The position numbers and the translations under genes were made by a program. 23,604 bases of DNA, from positions 1-23,604 of IMG/VR virus record IMGVR_UViG_3300037069_000697. One strand, 5' to 3'. Source of the DNA: a virus. The notes beneath the pieces are model-generated. The model was not told the origin of the DNA. It saw nothing but the letters and a program-made list of their open reading frames with translations, and did no database searches. This document shows positions 865 through 10,273 of this stretch, one piece after another (positions within the stretch are counted from its first letter, which is position 1; every line of letters begins with the position of its first letter).

Positions 865-913
865 GGTTATAAACGTAGGCAGGGAGAATCTAGACCCTGA
901 TAACGTCTGCTAA
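815..913 (+). CDS. 32-residue hypothetical peptide overlapping a structured RNA
   Basis: The ATG at 815 is preceded by a good Shine-Dalgarno (GAGGGAG, about 4 bases away). The product begins MSRFIKKTGQIGPECVRVI and ends with Cys. The second half of the frame runs through the 5' strand and first hairpins of the RNA-like fold at 871-985. It could therefore be a leader peptide whose translation changes the RNA fold, or a chance ORF. No family recognised. Confidence 0.25.
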   Translation: MSRFIKKTGQIGPECVRVINVGRENLDPDNVC

Positions 914-985
914 TGCGGCGAAGTACTTCGTTCGATTCGGAGACCTGGCGAATACGTCGGGTTAGTTAAATGGCCTACGTTTTTT
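871..985 (+). ncRNA. Structured RNA candidate 1, cloverleaf-like with a T-arm-like hairpin
   Basis: A perfect 10-bp closing helix pairs AAACGTAGGC (871-880) with GCCTACGTTT (973-982) and runs straight into six T (980-985). Inside, four hairpins can form in series. They are 881-884/895-898 (AGGG/CCCT); 904-910/915-920 (CGTC-GC/GC-GGCG, bulged T908, loop TAAT); 926-930/938-942 (CTTCG/CGGAG); and 944-947/958-961. The third has a seven-base loop TTCGATT, exactly the size and sequence of a tRNA T-loop. A normal tRNA is not supported: no D-loop GG, no U33-type anticodon loop, and no paired 7-bp acceptor flanking the T-arm. A tRNA mimic such as a bacterial Y-RNA-like molecule is one possibility (inference). 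Confidence 0.5.
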
Positions 986-999
986 GAAAATTGAATATT

Positions 1000-1222
1000 T
1001 AGGCAGCGGCGTGGAAAGCAGTGGCTGGCTAGTTCTGTAGGCGAATGCCTCGACCAGATCACTGGAGACACGCACTTTTAGGAAAAGCTATGAGAGGTGG
1101 CAAGCCACGGTTCCCCGCCCTTAGCCATAGGGGAGAGTCTGTGTGAATCGGACCTTAATCGGGCCAGCATCAAATCTGGTCTCTCATAAGTAGGAGTAGC
1201 GACCTACCTGCCTACACTTTTT
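1000..1222 (+). ncRNA. Structured RNA candidate 2, multibranched fold
   Basis: Bases 1000-1006 (TAGGCAG) pair with 1208-1214 (CTGCCTA), followed by five T (1218-1222). Between them lie compatible helices. Domain A: 1009-1013/1069-1073 (GCGTG/CACGC), 1019-1023/1060-1064 (CAGTG/CACTG), 1025-1028/1054-1057 (CTGG/CCAG), and 1039-1042/1047-1050 with a GAAT loop. Then 1075-1079/1083-1087 (CTTTT/AAAAG). Domain B: 1089-1096/1181-1188 (TATGAGAG/CTCTCATA) enclosing 1097-1100/1105-1108, 1113-1116/1130-1133 and 1164-1167/1176-1179. Finally 1190-1194/1203-1207 (GTAGG/CCTAC). So many nested, mutually compatible helices in 223 coding-free bases argue for a real RNA. RNase P, tmRNA and 6S signatures were looked for and not found. 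It ends just before the lipoprotein gene's SD, so it could be a stand-alone RNA or a 5' regulatory leader. Confidence 0.55.
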
Positions 1223-1237
1223 GAAATAGGAGAGTTT

Positions 1238-1492
1238 ATGAAGCTTGCATATTTATTATTGCTAACCTTAGTCACCGCCGGTTGTGTAGGAGCTTCTCCG
1301 CCCATTTCCGCAAAATACCACTTTGGTGAGAGAGTTTCCTATCAATCCAATTTCTATGGTAGATGTGTCGGACGTATAGACGAGTGTTACGGGTACGATG
1401 AATTTTCTTATGTTGTGGTAGGAAAATGCTCCTTCAGCGGAAATAAGATTATCAGAAGCCAAATCAGAGAGAACGATTTAACTAAGGAATAG
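1238..1492 (+). CDS. Small lipoprotein with SH3/KOW-like body
   Basis: The start at 1238 is fixed by a strong Shine-Dalgarno AGGAGAG (1228-1234). The 84-residue product has a short Lys start, a hydrophobic segment LAYLLLLTLV and TAGC as a lipobox (Cys16), so it should be lipidated and membrane-anchored. The mature part (FGERVSYQSNFYGRCVG...) resembles small SH3/KOW-type barrels seen in phage proteins; this is a weak family resemblance. Cys pairs may form disulfides. It converges on the endolysin gene with a 15-bp 3' overlap. An outer-membrane spanin subunit or a superinfection-exclusion lipoprotein are both possible. Its opposite orientation to the lysis genes favours an independently expressed moron. 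Confidence 0.65.
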   Translation: MKLAYLLLLTLVTAGCVGASPPISAKYHFGERVSYQSNFYGRCVGRIDECYGYDEFSYVVVGKCSFSGNKIIRSQIRENDLTKE

Positions 1493-7645: not shown

Positions 7646-10273
7646 TTAATTCTGCTTATTCCGACGACCCTCAGCAGTCTGATTCGGAGTAGCGTACATG
7701 TTGGGCATTTTACTTAAAGACGCAGTAGATCTCTTAGGTCCAGCACCTTGTGGAGCTTGTTGCTGACTGCTTTGTTGTCCAGACTGCACTGATTGAATCG
7801 ATTGTATGGAGGCAGGAGTCATGGTGCTATCTAGGGGCTGACCCATAAATAAGGATAAAGCCGTCCTTGTCTTGTACGGGATGGTTTTACCTTTTTCAGT
7901 TGCATCCATAACCTCGTTTAGCAACTTCTGCCTCATACCAGTGTAAAGTGCTGGATATATAGTACTGAGAGTCTTAATATCCTGAACATTTAAAGTTCCT
8001 TTTTGGATTTTGTCCAACACTATCATGGGCTGTTGTGCAACGTTTAGGGCGTTGTCATACTGCGCTTTGGTAGTAGCGGATAATACTGGTTTGGCATCTA
8101 AGGGATTTTTTGGATCTTGATTAGGTCTTAAACTATTTAAGTATTGTGCCGCAGTGCCTGCCGTCTGACTAGCACTGGAGGCGTGGTCCGGTAAGTAATG
8201 CCCTAAGTTCTCGTTATTATCTGCTGATAGTAGTTGTTGTGGGTTAGTTTGTAAGTGCTTAAGCATCTTATCTAACTTAGATCTCGAGGCTTCATTAGGA
8301 AACATAGAACTTGGAATGACGTCAGATCCTAATCTAAATACATTCTTGGCAGCTTTGGTCAGAAGACCATCTCCGCGTGCCACGGTGAGTCCATAATTTG
8401 TTGCTGCCTCGAGACCGGCTCCAGACGCTGCTCTATTTTTGAGTATCGCCCCTGCTATAGCCGGGAGGACTGTCTTAAAGAATGGTCCCAATGAATAGGC
8501 CCCAATCATAGAGCCCATTTCCATATGACCAGCGTAATGACCAAGTATACCACCAATACCCGCTCCTAAACCCTTACTACCGCCTTCTTTAACACCTTTT
8601 TGTAATAGAATGTCGAACAGTTTAGCTCCTGTAGTCTGCTTACCTAAGGTAGCCATTGTGGCGTTCAGGGGCGTGTCTACGATTGGAGACTCAATACCTA
8701 AGTTGGTATGAGTATCTCTGATAACGTTCTGGTATTTCTTACTAGCGTCGATGAAGTTACCTAGCATCTCTTGCTTAATCTCAGCAGACGGTTTACCAAG
8801 CTGATTCATGTAGATGTTAATTTTCGACGGGTCTACGACCCTCTCAGTGAGGAGGTCAGTTGTAAATCTCTTCTCAAAATCTTTAAGGGCTGGTAAGTAC
8901 TCTGTAAATGCTTTGTTAATCGCCTGTTGTCGGGTAGCGGCTCCTGCCCAAACATTCGTGTCCTCAAGCTTAGACCTTAAGTCATAGGCAAGGTTTTTCG
9001 CAGTGTTTACAAAATCATAGGCCTCGTCAACAGGTTTAACAAACTTATCAAACTTTGCATACCCTTGCAGTGATTGTTTCAAGTCTTGAGTTGCGTTAAA
9101 TACGTCTGTAACATTACCGGTGCTAGCCTTAGACGTAAATGCGTCTAAATCGCCTTGTAGCCTGGACGTAAGTCTTGCAGGATATCGACTAGGATCTTTA
9201 ATCATGTCTGAGATACTGCCTGACAATGCTCTAGAGATCTGCTCGCCCTGCTCTGTGATAGCGGGGGTAAGCTCTGTGGGCAGTGCCTTAGCGACATCTG
9301 CCGCCTTTAGACCAGATGGTCCATAGACCTCGTCCGCCATTGATTTAATACCATTGTGGAAGTTTCTAACCTCCTCCGTTACAGAGGCTACTGGATCGGG
9401 GTTATTAATGTGCTCATCTGCTCTACCAAAGAAGTCAGCAGCAAGTCTCCCTCCGGTCCTCTCCCATAAAGGAGATAAGGATTGAAGCCCACCGCCTACC
9501 GCACCGCCGAGAAGTCCACTTAGACCTACTGTTGCGGCAGCTGTCTGAGCTGACTGGTTTGGGTCGTTCAGAATCATCTTAGATGTTTCATCACTACCCG
9601 CTAAAAGCATGTTCTCAACTGACGCTTTAGCGGCAGCGGTACCGATCTGTCCGGCTAGTGTCTGAGGGACGTATTCTTGAGCTATCTTTGTAACACCGGT
9701 GCCTACTTTTTCTAGGAATGCAGCTTGAGTAAGTCCTGCAGCACCAGACAACGCGTCCGATGCACCAGTAAGTCCAGCCTTAGCGGCTAGGTTAGCTCCA
9801 CCTGTTAAAGCTGTAGGTAATAGAAGTCCACCGACCTCCCCAACAAAGTGCTTGCCTGGATGTACCTCAGCTCGTCCTCTAATGTCCCTAGGATCGACTC
9901 CAAGGCCTTCTTCTATAGCAGGCACTACCGGACCTAACAAACCCTGTCCTAGGCCCTCTAGGGCTGCCGTACCACCTTGGTCGCCATACTTCTTAACTAA
10001 CTCAAACTTTGCCACCTGTTCAGATGACGGGACCGTGTAACCATAGGATTTAGCCTCCTCTACTTGAGAGGGGGGTATTAGTCCTACTTGTCCATCGTTA
10101 GGGTCCACCATGTGAATGGTGTGCGTGTCGTCTGTACTAGGAGGAGGTAGGGGCTTAGTTCCTTGCATCGCCTGAGCCTGTACAAGATCACTGCCCATCA
10201 TATAAGGCGCACTGTCAGCTGTAGGAGCTACTACCGCACCTGCATCTATTGGGTTTCCGGTGTTATCAGCCAT
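7646..10273 (-). CDS. Large internal virion / DNA-ejection-type protein
   Basis: An 875-residue protein. Residues 55-150 (VDPNDGQVGLIPPSQ..., EEAKSYGYTVPSSE, RAEVHPGKHFVGEVGGLLLP) resemble a domain seen in large internal proteins of short-tailed phages. Several Gly/Ala-rich hydrophobic stretches follow (about 145-180, 205-225, 245-265 and a GAGIGGILGHYAGH region further on). Such stretches in ejection proteins are thought to insert into the host envelope. The C-terminus is Gln/Ser-rich and basic (QSVQSGQQSSQQQ...). It is the third of three consecutive large virion genes. There is no tape-measure or lytic domain that I recognise. Ejection function is inferred from context and composition. Confidence 0.6.
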   Translation of the reverse strand: MADNTGNPIDAGAVVAPTADSAPYMMGSDLVQAQAMQGTKPLPPPSTDDTHTIHMVDPNDGQVGLIPPSQVEEAKSYGYTVPSSEQVAKFELVKKYGDQGGTAALEGLGQGLLGPVVPAIEEGLGVDPRDIRGRAEVHPGKHFVGEVGGLLLPTALTGGANLAAKAGLTGASDALSGAAGLTQAAFLEKVGTGVTKIAQEYVPQTLAGQIGTAAAKASVENMLLAGSDETSKMILNDPNQSAQTAAATVGLSGLLGGAVGGGLQSLSPLWERTGGRLAADFFGRADEHINNPDPVASVTEEVRNFHNGIKSMADEVYGPSGLKAADVAKALPTELTPAITEQGEQISRALSGSISDMIKDPSRYPARLTSRLQGDLDAFTSKASTGNVTDVFNATQDLKQSLQGYAKFDKFVKPVDEAYDFVNTAKNLAYDLRSKLEDTNVWAGAATRQQAINKAFTEYLPALKDFEKRFTTDLLTERVVDPSKINIYMNQLGKPSAEIKQEMLGNFIDASKKYQNVIRDTHTNLGIESPIVDTPLNATMATLGKQTTGAKLFDILLQKGVKEGGSKGLGAGIGGILGHYAGHMEMGSMIGAYSLGPFFKTVLPAIAGAILKNRAASGAGLEAATNYGLTVARGDGLLTKAAKNVFRLGSDVIPSSMFPNEASRSKLDKMLKHLQTNPQQLLSADNNENLGHYLPDHASSASQTAGTAAQYLNSLRPNQDPKNPLDAKPVLSATTKAQYDNALNVAQQPMIVLDKIQKGTLNVQDIKTLSTIYPALYTGMRQKLLNEVMDATEKGKTIPYKTRTALSLFMGQPLDSTMTPASIQSIQSVQSGQQSSQQQAPQGAGPKRSTASLSKMPNMYATPNQTAEGRRNKQN

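Follow-up and report, generated by a model that had tools for sequence, protein, structure and literature searches.

What occupies the coding-free gap at positions 1000 to 1222 of this 23.6-kb virus record, and does it act on its own or on the gene that follows it? An initial annotation of the window (the whole stretch of DNA analysed, 23,604 nucleotides) had placed a multibranched RNA there, closed by a 7-bp helix, followed by a T-run and holding at least ten compatible helices, and had offered two readings: a new phage non-coding RNA, or a large leader for a lipoprotein gene. These coordinates, the closing helix, and the T-run are right, and twelve mutually compatible helices can be drawn. 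The proposal that the stretch is coding-free also fits: it lies between plus-strand ORFs at 661–864 (67 aa) and 1238–1492 (84 aa), and no credible plus-strand ORF was found within it. The surroundings include a lysozyme-type endolysin (1478–1909) and large structural proteins encoded on the other strand.

The expectation that the RNA would fold more stably than shuffled sequence failed. Its minimum free energy (MFE) is −76.9, compared with −72.0 ± 4.8 for dinucleotide shuffles (z −1.03), and 34 of 200 shuffles are equally stable; the test is insensitive for this RNA, because the 96 members of the family described below average only z −1.4. The unconstrained MFE fold of 1000–1214 contains exactly the four family helices: P1, P2, P3, and the last hairpin. 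In agreement with the earlier failure to assign the RNA to a known class, Rfam 15 gave no match at or above the gathering score, either for the window or for the RNA of 20 further member loci, and ARAGORN recognized no tRNA or tmRNA in the window or in the members checked. Searches for DNA similarity between the element and phages or plasmids found none, and the literature searches returned no description of this RNA.

Homologs bear out the multibranched RNA where folding energy alone does not. With the 1009-aa and 344-aa structural proteins as bait, we fetched about 100 loci of related phages; the endolysin used the same way gave one distant relative, and the 84-aa lipoprotein-like ORF gave none. 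A covariance model built from the window RNA alone (R2) matched three of these phages, with rough E-values of 2e-12 (G069), 6e-11 (L125), and 1.5e-8 (L068). These homologs are nearly letter-identical at three places, with little agreement outside them: CGGCGUGGRAAGC, UGGAGACACGC, and AGUCGCG within the loop of the last hairpin. A search pattern made from the first two pieces retrieved 42 IMG/VR stretches and six genome contigs, and a version allowing a longer P3 retrieved 56 further stretches. Nearly all of these loci have P1, in a sequence that varies by member, and the last hairpin at the expected places (L181 has a poor P1 in the automatic parse). One contig, from Clostridiales (L204), fits the first pattern but lacks both P1 and the last hairpin and scores 14 bits, and we treat it as a chance match. 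BLAST with one member added four Pseudomonas aeruginosa phages: phi297, AUS531phi, vB_PaeS-D14P, and the PACL phage. Two other routes were abandoned. One was 14-base BLAST matches in related phages, two of which sit inside coding sequence and are due to chance. The other was a scan of intergenic gaps in the relatives for stretches of low folding energy or for a T-run preceded by a 7-bp closing helix, which was uninformative owing to an excess of chance matches. The family comprises 96 distinct sequences, a lower bound given that the patterns demand exact core letters, drawn from some 100 contigs of IMG/VR, a small number of bacterial genomes, and the four P. aeruginosa phages. The majority are metagenomic, often on contig fragments without an assigned host, and the ORF calls on these contigs are mechanical.

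Table 1. Features of the RNA element and its downstream neighbour, in window coordinates.
Feature	Position	Strand	Basis or remark
Whole RNA element, P1 to P1' (1000–1214), with downstream T-run	1000–1222	+	fold; family model R3; independent homologs via R2
P1, 5' strand, TAGGCAG	1000–1006	+	pairs with 1208–1214; 8/8 P1 pairs covary, 37 sequences, 93% of cells paired
CG linker, P1 to P2	1007–1008	+	CG in 90/95 members
P2, 5' strand, GCGTG	1009–1013	+	pairs with 1069–1073, CACGC
Internal loop, 5' side, GAAAG (family GRAAG)	1014–1018	+	alignment A5; opposes GAGA, 1065–1068
P3 domain: base CAGTG/CACTG, exchangeable distal part	1019–1064	+	base covaries; insert 14–90 nt
Internal loop, 3' side, GAGA, and P2, 3' strand, CACGC	1065–1073	+	alignment, covariation, P2 compensations
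Middle domain, exchangeable; closed by TATGAGAG/CTCTCATA, about five hairpins	1074–1188	+	predicted only
Middle-domain hairpin with T-loop-like loop TGTGAAT	1137–1153	+	predicted only
Last hairpin (P11), GTAGG-AGTAGCGA-CCTAC	1190–1207	+	5/5 pairs covary; loop NNU(A/C)GCGN
P1, 3' strand, CTGCCTA	1208–1214	+	covariation
T-run (T5)	1218–1222	+	U-run enrichment in family
Lipoprotein-like ORF, 84 aa, own Shine-Dalgarno AGGAG	1238–1492	+	context, outside the RNA

All members have a common frame consisting of P1, the CG linker, P2 with its GRAAG/GAGA internal loop, the base of P3, and the last hairpin. The family model R3 matches the window at 999–1215 with 88.5 bits, the window being one of its training sequences, and every family feature is present there in order. 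Across 37 cores trimmed of their middle domains, covariation amounts to 0.589 compared with 0.151 ± 0.013 in shuffled alignments (0 of 500 reach the observed value) and at most 0.123 when partners are slid. Both sides change in all pairs of P1 and of the last hairpin, and in four of the six pairs of the P3 base. P2 is invariant in this test, its letters having been fixed by the search patterns; it covaries too, because compensated variants were found outside the first patterns, by the model or by a P2-swapped pattern: GCACG/CGTGC (L214, L279), GTACG/CGTAC (L276), GTGTG/CACAC (L215), and ACGTG/CACGT (L037). One of these members, L214, has lost P3 altogether. The compensatory changes that the initial annotation had called for are thus decisive for P1, P2, P3, and the last hairpin. 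The modelled strand also fits, since G-U cells outnumber A-C cells 24 to 6. On these comparative grounds we regard it as nearly certain that a folded RNA with this structure exists; the small helices of the window's middle domain (1075–1188), for which there is no homolog of the same type, are predictions. Two finer proposals were dropped: pairing of the CG linker with the GCG of the last loop gains no support from linker variants, and GRAAG/GAGA does not read as a kink-turn, a motif in which the G-A pairs are ordered differently.

Two domains set on this frame are exchangeable. P3 inserts range from 14 to 90 nt and are swapped between members, and middle domains range from 30 to 163 nt and fall into several unrelated types. 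When P3, the middle domain, and the flanks were compared pairwise, L160 and L179 proved 100% identical in P3 with unrelated middles, and L177 and L184b 97% identical in the middle with unrelated P3 domains. One middle type recurs in 14 members (e.g., L163, L174, L186, L202, L205, L258), mostly at 77–94% identity, although their P3 domains clearly differ and their flanks are unrelated; it is carried by P. aeruginosa phages, Paludibacterium, and, more distantly, Cerasicoccus. This type has a hairpin loop, CGGGAACAAGCG, and a conserved GUUCC 20–41 nt downstream with which the GGAAC of the loop can pair, a likely pseudoknot. Second copies with different inserts lie nearby in five loci (L173, L165, L179, L184, L225). 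A complete tRNA-type T-arm is present in the P3 of 3 of the 96 members, compared with 0.03 expected; T-arm or cloverleaf-like P3 modules occur in L232, L236, and L271, and the P3 of L232 is cloverleaf-like. Sequence comparison thus shows that neither P3 nor the middle domain is tied, in inheritance or in swapping, to the other or to the flanking genes, and from these independent swaps, the neighbouring variant copies, and the tRNA-type modules it follows that frame and payload evolve separately. At L173:8176–8614 (minus strand), two adjacent copies have P1 and a flanking repeat in common, and one carries a tRNA-like element in P3.

Is the RNA made as a unit? Sixteen of 30 strong −10 matches lie 12–15 nt upstream of the CG linker, which puts them a few bases ahead of P1, and several of them have TTGAC about 17 nt further up. 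The overall −10 enrichment is weak (31% vs 23% in shuffled sequence), with clear promoters in a minority only. No consensus promoter was found for the window copy, which may be co-transcribed or use another polymerase. At the other end, 27 of 95 members (28%) have a TTTT no more than 12 nt past P1', compared with 40 of 945 control windows (4%), and P1 with its T-run is probably a terminator. Promoter position, U-runs, and the strand signal together argue that some members at least are transcribed as a separate RNA spanning P1 to P1'; a transcript starting at P1 and ending at P1' plus the U-run is, for subsets of the family, partly shown by these signals.

The genes beside the RNA vary. Among those identified, terminase large subunit is found most often, followed by Erf/RecT, exonuclease, tail, and lysis genes, and no neighbouring gene is constant across the loci. 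Hosts include Pseudomonas, Paludibacterium, Peiella, Cerasicoccus, and an Armatimonadota MAG. Distribution is patchy, with the RNA in 5 of 50 related phage records and in 3 of 369 genomes from the class to which Paludibacterium belongs, Paludibacterium itself included, and this spread fits a mobile accessory RNA. In phi297 and AUS531phi the RNA lies between bci and the RecT operon, with a terminator-like hairpin directly after it. The bci gene is a csrA-family gene of P. aeruginosa phages (PMC7366521, whose Table 3 lists AUS531phi QGF21359.1). The phi297 record (L205) annotates a hypothetical protein, phi297_00020, across the RNA (7970–8227); the CDS is probably spurious, because the region is left unannotated in two of the other three phages.

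Several other RNAs were seen along the way. Just upstream of the window RNA is a second structured element, RNA1 (871–985, plus strand; about 870–988), of 115 nt with T6, four hairpins, a 10-bp closing stem AAACGTAGGC/GCCTACGTTT, and an MFE z of −3.0. One of its hairpins is a tRNA-type T-arm, CTTCG-TTCGATT-CGGAG, with one G-U pair. RNA1 was considered as a homolog of the window RNA and is not a member of the family; no homologs of RNA1 were found in about 2 Mb of related phage sequence. A gap in a relative phage (L067:7343–7679) holds a tRNA-like fold with an 11-bp acceptor-like stem (one mismatch) and an adjacent T-arm-like hairpin, recognized by neither ARAGORN nor Rfam. A lone tRNA-Asn(GTT) occurs in 4 of 22 related phage records (L037, L060, L070, L077), and the Rfam RT-15 RNA (RF03018, 169 bits) lies at L186:3246–3432 (minus strand), on a contig that also carries a family member some 10 kb away.

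We consider it fairly likely that the window RNA belongs to an undescribed family of trans-acting structured phage RNAs. The first of the two readings offered originally, a new phage non-coding RNA, is supported by a covarying family that lacks an Rfam match and is found almost only in phage contigs and prophage-like loci. Action in trans, which we hold to be quite likely, is the best reading because there is no constant partner gene, variants stand in tandem, and domains are swapped. For single copies, the window's among them, the strongest competitor is the second reading: a cis-acting leader, riboswitch-like or an attenuator, whose core at the P1 junction would sense a ligand or protein while P1 and the U-run control the next gene. 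A conserved core by P1 with a variable periphery is the typical aptamer pattern, a Shine-Dalgarno sequence and start codon lie within 90 nt downstream in 42 of 95 members (10 of 94 controls), and in the window the ATG of the lipoprotein-like ORF, which has its own Shine-Dalgarno, follows the T-run by about 16 bases. A leader may account for the window copy but fits the family poorly. The RNA does not regularly precede functionally related genes in its own orientation: those that follow it are unrelated and have no function in common, and in 33 of 81 loci the closest ORF downstream is encoded on the other strand. Tandem second copies, and a core that stays constant while whole domains swap, likewise argue against a leader, which we regard as unlikely.

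The phi297 and AUS531phi copy, set in an early operon before a strong terminator-like hairpin, would suit an RNA-only antitermination element like put of phage HK022, allowing read-through of later terminators; many copies have no same-strand gene after them, the U-run often comes directly after P1, and exchangeable domains would be unexpected, all of which makes this very improbable. Slightly less credible still is a sponge binding CsrA/Rsm in the manner of RsmZ or CsrB beside a phage csrA. The csrA-family gene upstream in the P. aeruginosa phages (bci) and in L200, and the GGA in the conserved internal loop, would speak for it, but the other loci scanned have no csrA match, the GGA reads AGA in 11 of 95 members and is not set in several hairpin loops, the last loop often lacks GGA, and the conserved NNU(A/C)GCGN loop would have no role. 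We give equally scant credence to a packaging RNA of the terminase motor, functionally like the pRNA of phi29: the frequency of terminase neighbours, within 40 nt in L177, L182, and L193, points that way, but most loci lie away from terminase, one genome can hold different copies, domains are strongly swapped, and the carrier contigs reach 177 kb and bring terminases of different families alongside. Chance helices in a GC-rich intergenic stretch would account for the unexceptional folding energy and are refuted by the family covariation and the compensated P2 changes, leaving practically no room for that explanation.

We favour a scaffold RNA with exchangeable host-facing domains over a cis-acting leader, a function that we infer from the pattern of conservation, and incline toward a division of labour between frame and payload. 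The constant frame would be docked by a single partner common to widely differing hosts, which could be a conserved protein or RNP of the host, or else by the RNA itself; the exchangeable P3 tip and middle domain would face variable partners; and the whole might serve as a scaffold or decoy for host takeover or counter-defence. A counter-defence or decoy role, suggested by the modular, patchy, fast-changing pattern, is tentative. Equally speculative is a phage RNA chassis, its frame recognized in very different bacteria and its P3 and middle domains, including tRNA-like ones, recombined to counter or hijack host factors; such a chassis, if it exists, would be the RNA counterpart to modular anti-defence or effector proteins. 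Few small stand-alone phage RNAs are known to have a proven structure, and this family occurs in a wide range of phages and in loci resembling prophages. That two domains swap independently while the frame stays fixed suggests a docking part and a payload, so the binding partners of the constant and variable parts pose a concrete, testable question, for which phi297 of P. aeruginosa offers a cultured system.

The family is new as far as Rfam 15 and the literature searched go; its mechanism could be of a known kind. A few members resemble tRNA or tmRNA in their T-arm or cloverleaf-like P3 modules, but ARAGORN finds neither and the constant frame is unrelated. Like HK022 put, the phi297 copy is a structured element before a terminator in an early operon; unlike put, some members of the family are preceded by a promoter of their own, and in many loci the genes downstream lie on the opposite strand. 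It shares with CsrB and RsmZ a position beside csrA-family genes, in two lineages, but not the repeated GGA hairpin loops, and its GGA is not strictly conserved. The phi29 pRNA is another small stand-alone phage RNA, of about 170 nt, and members of the present family adjoin terminase in some phages; they differ in having no covariance-model match to pRNA, in not being tied to one motor, and in their variable domains. GOLLD and ROOL are several times longer than the window RNA. They are large, ornate, structured, non-coding RNAs, often phage-borne, multibranched, and of unknown function (PMC12286853). The window family is likewise structured, non-coding, phage-borne, and multibranched, but it has no Rfam match to either and is built differently, as a small constant core carrying exchangeable domains.
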